Of a stretch of DNA of 47,549 bases, positions 24,400 through 46,760 are shown piece by piece. The notes under the pieces are model-generated. The model had not been told where the DNA came from. It saw only the letters and a program-made list of their open reading frames with translations, and searched no databases. Origin of the DNA: Clostridia bacterium (lineage in GTDB: Bacteria; Bacillota; Clostridia; Oscillospirales; CAG-272); assembly GCA_017508195.1 (NCBI GenBank), contig JAFVZL010000005.1, forward strand, positions 1-47,549, written 5' to 3'. The position numbers and the translations under genes are program-made. Within the stretch, counting starts at the first letter, position 1, and each line of letters opens with the position of its first letter.

Positions 24400-24517
24400 G
24401 TTTTTTCGGGTAAATTATTTCTGAGTTTGAGAAAGGAGTTACGTTTCGCGCTTTTTTGCGGGGATGCTATGATATCATCAATAGAGATCATCGCATAAAA
24501 TGAAGCGAGGTGATTTT

Positions 24518-25681
24518 ATGATAATACATAACGTAAAGTCAGGCGAGACACTGACGGATGTGGCAGCGTGCTACGGAATTTCCCCTATCAAGCTTGCCGA
24601 AAACAACGGTCTATCTCAGAAATCAGCCCTCATAGAGGGTGAGGAGCTGCTTATACTCCAGCCAACGAGAAGCACAAATGCAAAAGTCGGAGAGAGCCTC
24701 GACGATATTGCAAGGCGTTTCGGGGTAAGGGAGAGTACGCTCCTCGGGATCAATCCCGAGCTGTGCGGAAGCGGCAGACTCTACGCGGGGCAGCCCATAG
24801 CCGTAAAGTACGGTCAGCCGTTATACGGTCTCGGCATCGGTAACGGATACTATTACAGAGGGTGCAGTCGCGAGGCTCTTATGCGCGCTCTTCCCTACCT
24901 CAACTACGTTACGGTGTCGGGAGCGGTCGGCAGAGGCGGCAGAGTCAATATGCTATTTGACGACACCGAGGTAGTCTCTCTCGCGCGGGCGGCGGGAAAG
25001 CTGCCGATGCTAAGACTTTGGCTCGGTGATGAGGATGCCTCCCATAGGGAGGCAACTATCAAGAGCGCGCTGCTTATAGCAAGTGCTCGTGGCTATCACG
25101 GTCTCACTCTCGCAGGTGAGGTCGGTACAGGCGAAGAATCAAAGGCGACACTCTCTATGGCGAAGGAAGCGAGCGCGGAATGCGGTCTTTCGCTTTTCGG
25201 TGAGTGTGACGTATCGAGGGTCAGAGATGGCGTGGATATCCCCGACGTGACGGTGCTGACGTACGATAAAATACACTTCGAGAAGATACCGGGCTTTGAC
25301 GAGGGGGAGCGTGTCGAGTTTACGCGCTTTGCCGAGAGACACGACGCGGTGAGAGCCTTTATTGATCTGTCCCCATTTGCGCTGATATCCGGAAAGTATA
25401 TTACTAAAGACGAGGCGAGATATGCCGTCTTACGCGGCGGCGGAAGTATTCACGAGAGCGGCTGCGAGAGCTATGCCGTGGCATCCGTAGGAAAGGGGCG
25501 GCGCGAACGGCTCTACATCTGGGAAACGATGAAAAACACGAGAAAAAAGCTCGAGCTTTTATCCGAGCTCGGCTATTACGGCATAAGCTTCGATATCGCG
25601 AGGGCGCCGATATATGATCTGTTAATGTTCCGCGTGATGTTCTCCGATGGGATAGGGATGAGGGGGGATGTGTCACCGTAG
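24518..25681 (+). CDS. LysM-domain protein with degenerate GH18-like domain (SleL/YaaH-like)
   Basis: A 387-aa protein with two LysM domains (about 2-48 with VKSGETLTDVAACYGIS, and 54-96 with VGESLDDIARRFGVRES) that bind peptidoglycan, then a GH18-like barrel (about 100-375) as in the spore cortex-lytic SleL/YaaH proteins. The expected catalytic DxxxDxE strand reads GYHGLTLAGEVG: the Glu position is kept but both Asp are lost, so activity is doubtful. Start at 24518 is set by GAGGTG; the ATG at 24500 precedes it. The stop codon TAG (25679-25681) lies in the loop of the first hairpin of the downstream island, so the last residues (GDVSP) come from that island. Confidence 0.8.
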   Translation: MIIHNVKSGETLTDVAACYGISPIKLAENNGLSQKSALIEGEELLILQPTRSTNAKVGESLDDIARRFGVRESTLLGINPELCGSGRLYAGQPIAVKYGQPLYGLGIGNGYYYRGCSREALMRALPYLNYVTVSGAVGRGGRVNMLFDDTEVVSLARAAGKLPMLRLWLGDEDASHREATIKSALLIASARGYHGLTLAGEVGTGEESKATLSMAKEASAECGLSLFGECDVSRVRDGVDIPDVTVLTYDKIHFEKIPGFDEGERVEFTRFAERHDAVRAFIDLSPFALISGKYITKDEARYAVLRGGGSIHESGCESYAVASVGKGRRERLYIWETMKNTRKKLELLSELGYYGISFDIARAPIYDLLMFRVMFSDGIGMRGDVSP

Positions 25682-26035
25682 GTGACGCGATATGCTATCC
25701 ATGATAGCGTGATATTCCGCCATAGGCGGAGCGATATGTCACCGTAGGTGACGCGATATGCCTTGAAAGCAAGGCGTGATGAAATCTGCCTTTGACAGAT
25801 GAAGTCCAAGGCGTGCCTTGGATGAAGTCGCGCTATGCGCGGTTAGGGGGGATGTCACCGTAGGTGACGCGATATGCTATCCATGATAGCGTGATATTCC
25901 GCCATAGGCGGAGCGATATGCTTCGCGATGCGAAGGTCGATATGTTATCTTCGATAACTCGATATTCCGTCTGTGACGGATCGATATGTTTCGCTGCGCG
26001 AAACTCGATATGTTCTCCTAAGGAGAACGTTAGGG
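25672..26035 (+). repeat. Island of about 16 tandem mini-hairpins
   Basis: Short perfect inverted repeats with 5-8 bp stems and 3-4 nt loops follow one another, joined by a linker of the form G/T-C/T-GATAT: GTCACC/GGTGAC, GCTATC/GATAGC, TCCGCC/GGCGGA, GCCTTG/CAAGGC, CCAAGGC/GCCTTGG, CGCGC/GCGCG, CTTCGC/GCGAAG, GTTATC/GATAAC, TCCGTC/GACGGA, GTTTCGC/GCGAAAC, GTTCTCC/GGAGAAC. Two sub-arrays each begin after an AGGGGGGATG motif, and their first three hairpins with linkers (about 68 nt) are repeated almost exactly at 25669-25738 and 25852-25920. A third TAGGGGG closes the island. Confidence 0.9.
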
Positions 26036-26082
26036 GGCTGAGTTATTTTAGATTTTTCAGCCTCAAAAAGTGGCAAAATTTT

Positions 26083-26124
26083 AGAGCGAAGATGCCTTTT
26101 TCACGGTATCTTCGCTCTTTTTTT
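26083..26124 (+). terminator. Intrinsic terminator after the hairpin island
   Basis: Stem AGAGCGAAGATGCC with GGTATCTTCGCTCT, T-rich loop and a run of seven T. An outer inverted repeat (GCTGAGTTA/TAACTCAGC, 26038-26156) encloses it, and it may also serve the convergent tatD gene. Confidence 0.85.
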
Positions 26125-26151
26125 ATTTGAAAATGATTCAGCCCACTTAAC

Positions 26152-26943
26152 TCAGCGCGGTATGCGATAAAAGCGCTTCGCGTTTTCTTCGGTGAGGGCG
26201 GCACATTCTTCCTCGCTGATACGGAGTATCGATGCGAGGGTGGCGTTCGTGTATTTAAGATTGCCCGAGTGGTTAAGCGAGCCGCGAAGCGGATGCGGTG
26301 CGAGATAGGGGGCATCGGTCTCGATAAGGAGATACTCGGGCGGTACTACCGCCGCTGCCTCCTTCGGCTTACGGGCGTTGGTAAAGGTGAGAGTTCCCGA
26401 GAAGGAGATCATATAGCCCATGCGGACAAGCTCCTTAGCCATCTCGGCACTGCCCGAGAAGGAATGCATAACGCCTTTCACGGTCGGGTAGTCCCTTAGG
26501 ACTGTCATTATGTCCTCGTGCGCTTCTCTGTCGTGGATTGAAATGGGGATATCAAGCGAGCGCGCGAGCTCCATCTGGGCTCTGAAGTAGCGCATCTGCT
26601 TTTCCTTATCGGTGCCATCGTAGTGGTAGTCAAGCCCTATCTCACCGAGGCAGACGCACTTCGATGCGGGATCGCGGAGCATGGACTCGCACTCTGCGAG
26701 CTCTGAGTCAAGATCCGAGAGAAAGCGCGTATCGCCCGGGTGGATACCGACTGTAGAATACATATTCTGGAATTTTTTTGCCTGCTCTATCGCAAGGCGC
26801 GAGGTCGAGGGCATCGTGCCAACGTTCACGATATACGAAACGCTATCCGAAAGAAGAGCGCCGATAAGCTCATCGACGCTCCCCTCGCACTCGCTCTCGA
26901 AGCGCTCGTCATAATAGTGAGCGTGAGAATCGAAGTATCTCAT
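26152..26943 (-). CDS. TatD family metal-dependent hydrolase
   Basis: A 263-aa TIM-barrel DNase/hydrolase of the TatD family. Metal ligands: FDSHAHYYDERF (HxH at the start), GEIGLDYHYD (Glu), ISIHDREAHED (His), MHSFSGS (His) and LIETDAPYLAP (Asp). Length and motifs are normal. Its start ATG overlaps the stop of metG by 1 nt (TAATG), the usual metG-tatD order in Firmicutes, so the pair is one transcript. It probably acts as a 3'-exonuclease in DNA processing. Confidence 0.95.
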   Translation of the reverse strand: MRYFDSHAHYYDERFESECEGSVDELIGALLSDSVSYIVNVGTMPSTSRLAIEQAKKFQNMYSTVGIHPGDTRFLSDLDSELAECESMLRDPASKCVCLGEIGLDYHYDGTDKEKQMRYFRAQMELARSLDIPISIHDREAHEDIMTVLRDYPTVKGVMHSFSGSAEMAKELVRMGYMISFSGTLTFTNARKPKEAAAVVPPEYLLIETDAPYLAPHPLRGSLNHSGNLKYTNATLASILRISEEECAALTEENAKRFYRIPR

Positions 26944-28905: not shown

Positions 28906-29298
28906 TTATAACGACAATCGAAAGTCGAAATTAACAAATTTCGACCGCAAATCTGAGATTTGCAAGCAAATTTCGCGAAGGAAATTTGTCGATTTCTGTT
29001 GAAATGATATGGATTCAAAAAGCCAAAAAACGGCTTTTTGTTCGGCTGATGGTTCAGCCGTGAAAAGGCTTTCCGCCTTTTCCGATATTCCATAATCATT
29101 ATAACGACAATCGAAAGTCGAAATTAACAAATTTCGACCGCAAATCTGAGATTTGCAAGCAAATTTCGCGAAGGAAATTTGTCGATTTCTGTTTCAATGA
29201 TATAGATGCAAAAAGCCTCCTTGTGCTTTTTGTTCGGCTGATGGTTCAGCCGCGAAAAGGCTTTTTCGCCTTTTCGACATTCTATAATCATTATCGAC
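28906..29298 (+). repeat. Repeat family A, two tandem units
   Basis: Two head-to-tail units (about 28906-29100 and 29094-29298) nearly identical to each other and to the reverse complement of 1-338. Each has CGAAATTAACAAATTTCG, GCAAATCTGAGATTTGC, AAATTTCGCGAAGGAAATTT, AAAAAGCC/GGCTTTTT, CGGCTGA/TCAGCCG and AAAAGGC/GCCTTTT palindromes, ending in CATAATCATTATAACGACA. They fill the gap between the divergent metG and holB genes. Two short frames inside (28906-29130 and the metG extension) are translations of the repeat. Confidence 0.88.
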
Positions 29299-29441
29299 AA
29301 ATGAGTCGGGCTACCGCGGTGCGTACATTATTCTAGTATAACATTTTAGCACAAGAGGAAAGAAAATACAAGTATTTTCGGAAAGTTTTATAGGTATGCG
29401 GGAGAATTTGGTGCGTAGGGCGCACTAAATATAAAAAAATA

Positions 29442-46572: not shown

Positions 46573-46760
46573 TGCAAACTATGATTGCCTTACGGCAAGT
46601 TATGATGCTCGCAAAGCGAGCAGTTATGAGAGGCTCCGCCTCGTGATGATGCCCTATCGGGCAGTTTTACGTAACAAAGGCAATCATATCATAACGTGCC
46701 ATAGGCACTCATAACTTTTGCGAAGCAAAATCATAACGTTCATGATGTGAACTCATAACT
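46573..46760. repeat. Second mini-hairpin island, mirrored linkers
   Basis: Seven short hairpins: TTGCC/GGCAA, TGCTCGC/GCGAGCA, GAGGC/GCCTC, TGCCC/GGGCA, GTGCC/GGCAC, TTTTGC/GCAAAA, GTTCA/TGAAC. In the left half the linker is GTTATGA (or GTGATGA); in the right half it is the reverse complement TCATAAC. The left edge ATGATTGCCTT returns inverted as AAAGGCAATCAT (46677-46688), so the island folds on itself as one large inverted repeat as well as many small ones. Confidence 0.85.

Follow-up and report, generated by a model that had tools for sequence, protein, structure and literature searches.

Among the closest described counterparts of the repeat considered here are the REP repeats, which, according to a report on them, are found close to the 3' ends of genes and where two genes converge, and often supply a TAG stop codon (PMC3733652). 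REPtrons are described as relying on a strand-specific hairpin of single-stranded DNA, with a tag at its foot and read-out of its loop (PMC8266576). The promoters of the N4 virion RNA polymerase, as characterised in PMC4496689, require a closing pair and the 5' G and 3' A loop bases for extrusion from supercoiled DNA. A protein family also enters the comparison: PF05635 (TIGR02436), here called IVP, is described as functionally uncharacterised (PMC11270868), has Avd of diversity-generating retroelements given as a structural relative (PMC10053308), is reported beside cas genes (18 genes; PMC3936711), and appears in a list of CRISPR associations (PMC10910872). The open-access papers searched yielded no description of hairpin arrays like the one presented below, or of IVP with hairpin arrays.

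The hairpin array in the window

The window, that is, the whole stretch of 47,549 nucleotides that was analysed, carries 16 perfect hairpins in succession at 25672-26028, as the initial annotation had reported. Their stems are 5-7 bp and their loops 3-4 nt, apart from one loop of 7 nt. In 500 dinucleotide shuffles of the stretch the longest chain was 3, and hairpins with a stem of at least 6 and a loop of at most 4 never exceeded two per shuffle, against 14 observed. RNA folding of 25640-26060, a comparison that the initial annotation had proposed, gave z = -5.5 on the + strand and -7.1 on the - strand, with 0 of 100 shuffles equalling either. The duplication of hairpins 1-3 at a distance of 182 bp proved exact (25672/25694/25716 and 25854/25876/25898), and both sub-arrays do start with AGGGGGGATG (25661-25670 and 25845-25854). 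The claim of a constant linker needs qualification: GATAT occurs in 11 of the 15 linkers, but the four after hairpins 5-8 (gtgatgaa, gaag, tgaagt and gttaggggggat) deviate. The loops, which had been described as fixed, in fact vary (GTA, CAT, ATA, AAAG, CCTTTGA, CGTG, TAT, GAT, TTC, TGT, TGC and TAA).

The array is a mosaic on the + strand. After its AGGGGGGATG leader (25661..25670, read from the sequence), sub-array 1 (25672..25759, hairpin scan) comprises hairpins GTCACC, GCTATC, TCCGCC and GTCACC with GCGATAT/GTGATAT linkers; its linker-forward orientation is the + strand, and a covariance-model match covers 25672-25779. A middle stretch (25760..25841, +) follows, with hairpins GCCTTG, ATCTG, TCCAAGG and CGCGC and linkers gtgatgaa, gaag and tgaagt, a linker type different from that of the flanking sub-arrays. 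TGAAGT also occurs upstream of the IVP genes L371 and L372, and the middle stretch may be tied to the IVP type of these genes. The junction GTTAGGGGGGATG (25842..25854, +, read from the sequence) joins the sub-arrays and leads into sub-array 2 (25854..26028, +, hairpin scan), whose eight hairpins have GCGATAT/GTGATAT/TCGATAT linkers. A canonical five-hairpin unit (25920..26032, +; GCTTCGC, GTTATC, TCCGTC, GTTTCGC and GTTCTCC), delimited by alignment, pair counts and a model match, is the window's copy of a unit repeated elsewhere in the genome and scores 105.6 bits with the model.

Upstream lies a gene with a LysM domain (24500..25681, +; ORF and domain scan), the frame of which enters the array and ends within hairpin 1, where the loop supplies a TAG stop. 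Downstream are a terminator-like hairpin with a T run, recognised by eye (26083..26125, +), and a convergent gene for a TatD-family DNase (26152..26943, -), which served in the matching-site comparison below. The ten window ORFs scanned gave no match to a Cas family, and Rfam gave none in the window at the gathering score.

The window holds other hairpin repeats as well. A second hairpin-rich repeat, with seven hairpins from near TTATAACGACAATCGAAAG, occupies 160-319 and 28906-29304; positions 160-319 match 28924-29082 in reverse complement, and a tandem repeat with a period of 193 spans 28906-29294. Four hairpins with GTTATGA/GTGATGA linkers at 46585-46663 form a second solo array with another linker, and GTTATGA-linked hairpins are also found upstream of IVP gene L359.

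Copies in the host genome and its relatives

The initial annotation had staked its claim on the presence of further islands of this kind, and such islands occur both in the genome and in its relatives, so that the claim is not refuted on this point. A DNA search with the window array found 17 places in its own genome (G000), and a linker-only pattern, CGATATN{13,24}CGATATN{13,24}CGATAT, gave 33 matches there and its reversed control 0. A covariance model trained on 12 units gave 25 matches, including a few opposite-strand readings of one array, which I grouped into 14 islands. The usual unit of the family has five hairpins. Across 14 aligned units of this genome, 96.4% of cells pair and 7 of the 34 pairs have changed on both sides; 21 cells carry such a both-sided change, and 0 of 500 shuffles were as high. 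In two of the 14 rows MAFFT misplaced the last hairpin, and these rows were excluded from the model. Contig C34 has four tandem units that each repeat part of the upstream flank, as expected from local tandem duplication. On contigs C27, C36, C52 and C53 arrays lie near contig ends, where the repeats probably break the assembly, and the array copy number is a lower bound. A two-hairpin pattern specific to this genome had 0 matches in the genome-contig database.

With E <= 0.001, the covariance model matched 18 of 30 relatives, where the stems differ and the linkers are ATATCAC, ATATCGC or similar. The pattern YGATATN{12,20}YGATATN{12,20}YGATAT is present in 215 of 394 genomes of the host order, some through chance or coding matches, with counts up to 78; its reversed control matched at all in about 29 genomes and never more than 4 times (by eye). 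Several families of the order have few or no arrays, so the spread is patchy, and the family as a whole consists of arrays scattered through uncultured gut bacteria. An independent scan by linker alone found GTGATATN{12,18}GTGATATN{12,18}GTGATAT in at least 117 stretches of named genomes. Among the matches listed, both spacers were palindromic (at least 4 bp) in 75 of 94 Clostridia-titled stretches versus 1 of 23 others by my own sorting of record titles, the single positive outside being titled 'uncultured bacterium'. Likewise among the matches listed, 128 of 204 overlapping matches had a stem of at least 4 bp in both spacers, against about 0.34% for shuffled spacers. A phage origin was considered and rejected, as only 7 of the 70 stretches that a linker-only pattern found in IMG/VR have hairpin spacers by my cut, and one of the seven (L341) is a plain repeat.

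Placement could be assigned to 75 of 127 arrays, since 31 overlap a called ORF (calls that are probably spurious) and 21 are without one neighbour. Of these 75, 29 lie between convergent and 5 between divergent genes, and 22 and 19 are codirectional in the two orientations. There is no replication-strand bias by GC skew (GATAT strand G-rich 65, C-rich 54) and no coding-strand bias (GATAT strand coding-majority 39, minority 42). Of 26 same-genus genomes, TatD was located in 24; the 15 of these 24 other TatD loci that were inspected are all array-free at the site matching that of the window array. One of these genomes, G016, keeps the convergent pair (LysM-gene relative 58.5%, TatD 75.5%), with 307 nt between the matches; here the joined right flank scored 22 against the nearest relative, the shuffle maximum being 26, and no exact junction or target duplication was located.

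Loops and strand

Arrays were oriented from the linker only. Of the 323 distinct spacers, 253 form clean hairpins; the loop has 3 nt in 139 of them and 4 nt in 93, and the last base of the 5' arm, which closes the loop, is C in 225 of the 253. On the ATATC strand 116 of the 232 tri- and tetraloop hairpins have GNA or GNNA loops, compared with 4 on the other strand: 63 versus 2 of the 139 triloops are GNA, and 53 versus 2 of the 93 tetraloops are GNNA. When one hairpin is kept per distinct inner stem, the ratio is 40 to 1 (of 86). Many hairpins, including most of those in the window, are without this code. Mismatches within stems lean in the direction of the loop code: on the ATATC strand G-T outnumbers A-C by 22 to 8 (p 0.016), and 30 mismatches that read T-C on the GATAT strand correspond to G-A pairs on its ATATC complement.

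Both d(cGNAg) and d(cGNNAg) are stable DNA loops, and RNA would prefer GNRA. In the arrays the third position of GNNA is a purine in 27 of 53, which, unlike RNA GNRA, is no purine preference. Energy models do not decide between DNA and RNA, because both favour the ATATC strand (DNA 66 versus 8, RNA 55 versus 23, the rest equal). What argues for DNA over RNA is the occurrence of GNA and GNNA on one strand without a purine preference, together with the lack of a sense or antisense bias; judged by sequence, the loop code points to hairpins of single-stranded or extruded DNA and not of RNA. An RNA structure was among the options first proposed for the array, and of it the folding of a single strand survives, with DNA the more plausible material.

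IVP genes beside arrays

When the ORFs within 2.5 kb of arrays at 114 loci (400 proteins) were clustered, the most recurrent family was a four-helix-bundle protein (5 loci), followed by an rlmD/rumA-family gene (4 loci, partly shared with the former). The four-helix-bundle protein belongs to IVP, with relatedness to the solved structure 2rld at E 1.3e-20. PF05635 had 61 matches in 23 of the 30 relatives; 49 of these genes were examined, the omitted 12 being weak or fragmentary. The 36.5 kb within 400 nt of the 49 genes contain 28 GATAT-linked hairpin pairs, against 1 in the 89.7 kb farther away, and 25 of the 28 are upstream of the gene. They come from 8 loci, and as four of these are behind rumA-family genes, independent sites number at least 5. 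Arrays with any repeated linker (two or more spacers) are upstream of 25 of 49 IVP genes and downstream of 5 (Fisher p 2e-5). In a second set, the 28 top-scoring IVPs across the order, only 4 have arrays upstream (1 downstream), so the link is confined to some IVP clades. The host genome itself encodes an IVP with the window's linker (G000:C40:14959-15261, -), with CGATAT/ATATCG arrays directly upstream. The window array has no IVP gene alongside and would thus be a solo copy.

Within the regions upstream of IVP genes, the majority loop is GN(N)A up to 120 nt from the gene (20 versus 10) and TN(N)C farther out, at 120-240 nt (27 versus 6), which is what two arrays placed tail to tail would produce. 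At 17 of 77 IVP loci the array is separated from the start codon by a sequence with a strict extended -10 motif; a control window gave 2. A same-strand tRNA gene occurs within 450 nt upstream of 18 of 77 IVP genes, as compared with 6 of 460 control ORFs from other genomes; among the arrays of the window and the MAG loci, 3 of 87 are within 300 nt of a tRNA. IVP genes directly 3' of tRNA genes include L344, L353, L355, L362, L367, L368, L376, L386, L388, L389 and others, often with what appears by eye to be a terminator-like hairpin in between. Another recurrent site is 192-300 nt behind rlmD/rumA-family genes, where IVPs of three clades are found (L354, L361, L372, L375, L382, L385 and L387); L371 follows such a gene at 879 nt. 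A cargo family was sought behind the IVP genes and rejected, since 30 of 77 have a same-strand ORF right behind them and these ORFs are nearly all mutually unrelated, some of them housekeeping-like. The motif GxxRxxxSxxxNxxE given in PMC3936711 is matched in full by 0 of the 49 IVPs; six proteins inspected keep RxxxSxxxNxxE and are without the leading G. PADLOC gave no match for three IVPs.

On a tree of 46 IVPs, the CGATAT-linked proteins L382 (of this genome), L385, L384, L361 and L387 form one clade with support of 88/85, which is below the starred level. Broad GATAT-type linkers (7 rows) need 3 changes on the tree versus a mean of 6.2 with shuffled labels (4 of 500 as low), and the linker types TGAAT, TGAAGT and CATCAT are each found in IVP clades of their own. 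One clade of 11 has no arrays; its members include L347, L348, L349, L369, L370, L345, L377 and L381, and several are flanked by simple repeats without hairpins, for example TTCATTATTCA or CTTTCAACTTTCCA. At sites behind rlmD/rumA-family genes, each of three IVP clades has its own linker (TGAAT, TGAAGT or CGATAT), and three linkers at one type of site indicate that the linker tracks the protein and not the site. Four of the five CGATAT-linked IVPs are 243-300 nt behind a rumA-family gene and may represent one old insertion. As linker and IVP gene adjoin, shared descent alone could explain their covariation.

At the level of genomes, 69 of 73 array-rich genomes (6 or more pattern matches, a cut of my choosing) have an IVP, versus 111 of 321 others (odds ratio 33, p 1.6e-22, a test that ignores kinship); the array-rich genomes without IVP are G090, G308, G315 and G375. 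Among the 30 relatives, model matches occur in 7 of 7 genomes with a GATAT-linked IVP and in 11 of 23 without, the latter including G025 (97% complete) and G012 (88%). The arrays may be fossils there, or IVP may be dispensable.

Discussion

The reading that I favour, at about even chances, is that the window array is one dispersed copy, without an IVP gene, of a hairpin element that is associated with IVP and functions as DNA. In its full form the element would have a pair of hairpin arrays, set tail to tail, upstream of the small gene for the four-helix-bundle protein IVP. Its ATATCRC strand would fold into a comb of hairpins with 5-7 bp stems and GNA or GNNA loops, the closing pair mostly C-G, whenever that strand is single-stranded during replication or is extruded by supercoiling. 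Stems would drift freely as long as pairing holds, with linker and loop type retained. The IVP protein would bind the linker-hairpin units, and IVP or a host enzyme would spread them through a single-stranded DNA stage; the enzyme is left unnamed because IVP has no known catalytic domain. The window array could then depend, as a non-autonomous passenger, on the CGATAT-type IVP of contig C40; such a solo copy may have been enlarged by tandem duplication and have taken in units with a different linker type. A wider formulation, in which IVP is a small non-enzymatic protein reading a hairpin code in single-stranded DNA, each clade owning its linker word and solo arrays being passengers, is offered more tentatively and is possible rather than probable. 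The options first offered for the array were a substrate for recombination, a comb that binds protein, a structured RNA and a mobile element made of hairpin units. Among these, dispersed hairpin units with a recognised linker are what the copies in the genome, the differences between species, the array-free matching sites and the IVP neighbours support.

Four other explanations have to be set against this one. The arrays could be transcribed as 3' untranslated regions in which the hairpins protect or terminate mRNAs. Arrays avoid divergent gene pairs (5 against 29 convergent, of 75), they fold far better than shuffles, the window array is flanked by a stop codon and a terminator-like hairpin, and 27 of 53 GNNA tetraloops on one strand are GNRA. 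This reading is nevertheless unlikely: codirectional arrays occur in both orientations (22 versus 19), with the coded ATATC strand as often antisense; purines are not preferred in GNNA, and there are more triloops than tetraloops (139 versus 93); Rfam has no match in the window; and an extended -10 between array and IVP start (17 of 77) would exclude the array from the transcript. It is distinctly unlikely that the arrays are a selfish or neutral by-product, with template switching perfecting the hairpins, slippage and unequal crossing-over multiplying the units, and no recogniser at all. Such a process would suit the tandem duplication of whole units with their flank (C34), the joint change of both stem arms and the mosaic of several linker types, but it leaves unexplained why the linker is kept across unrelated stems and host families, why there is a loop code without a shared stem, and why IVP genes are linked.

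Improbable, too, is a repeat of the REP/BIME kind whose mover, a Y1 HUH transposase (RAYT/IS200-type), would read the hairpin and its linker tag. The logic resembles that reported for REPtrons, the location at gene ends resembles that described for REPs (PMC8266576, PMC3733652), and the host genome has two Y1_Tnp genes; but Y1_Tnp, present in 11 of 30 genomes, does not track the arrays and is absent from several array-bearing genomes, among them G021 (98% complete), which has 20 model matches. The 19 Y1 loci fetched have no GATAT hairpin array (L112 and L113 show chains of 4-5 hairpins with unrelated linkers), GC skew gives no lagging-strand type of bias (65 versus 54), and Y1_Tnp was rejected as the mover. 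Reverse transcriptase (RVT_1) was rejected too, being present in 6 of 30 genomes and absent from G000, G004, G005, G014 and G021. As neither is needed in G021, spread would fall to some other, unnamed enzyme. Very unlikely, finally, is a comb at gene ends that serves the host by absorbing supercoils or by binding nucleoid proteins or gyrase. Convergent gene ends are indeed preferred, and in N4 promoters this type of loop and closing pair is reported to need only a low superhelical density for extrusion (PMC4496689), yet the arrays are patchy among genomes of one order and absent from the relatives' matching site, and such a role does not predict IVP.

If the arrays are what the favoured reading makes them, a DNA-hairpin element associated with IVP, the link between array and IVP with a linker for each clade gives an uncharacterised family a candidate substrate that is directly testable, and under the wider, more tentative formulation it would be the first DNA substrate for the IVP/Avd-like family. 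A strand-specific GNA/GNNA code would be evidence, from sequence alone, of selection or an enzyme reading folded DNA over RNA. The arrays are classed here with the dispersed extragenic palindromic repeats, as a further form of them; an IVP-DNA system of a wholly new category is the bolder case.

Comparison with known systems

A CRISPR array has a constant repeat, variable spacers and cas genes, whereas here variable palindromes of 12-20 nt alternate with a constant linker; the reports of IVP at cas loci involve CRISPR arrays and not variable hairpins of this kind. The intervening sequences of 23S rRNA encode the same protein family (PF05635, TIGR02436), but the arrays described here occupy intergenic sites, in many cases after tRNA or rlmD/rumA genes, and are not in rRNA. 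Unlike Avd systems, the genomes G000, G004, G005, G014 and G021, which have both arrays and IVP, contain no RVT_1. The hairpins of N4 promoters, as described in PMC4496689, share with the arrays the small DNA hairpin, the C-G closing pair, the 5' G and 3' A and the strand-specific loop; they are single phage promoters and not arrays, and no such polymerase is implied here. REP/BIME repeats, to the extent that the reports cited above describe them, are similar as extragenic palindromes at gene ends and in having a strand-specific hairpin with a tag at its foot. The arrays differ from them in that stems are not conserved across copies or species while the linker is kept, in that units point one way, head to tail, with a 7-nt linker between them, and in that the fixed GTAG/CGTC tag is replaced by linkers of the form N[CT]GATAT and other words. 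The gene partner of REP/BIME is RAYT; here Y1 genes do not track the arrays, and the linked gene is IVP.
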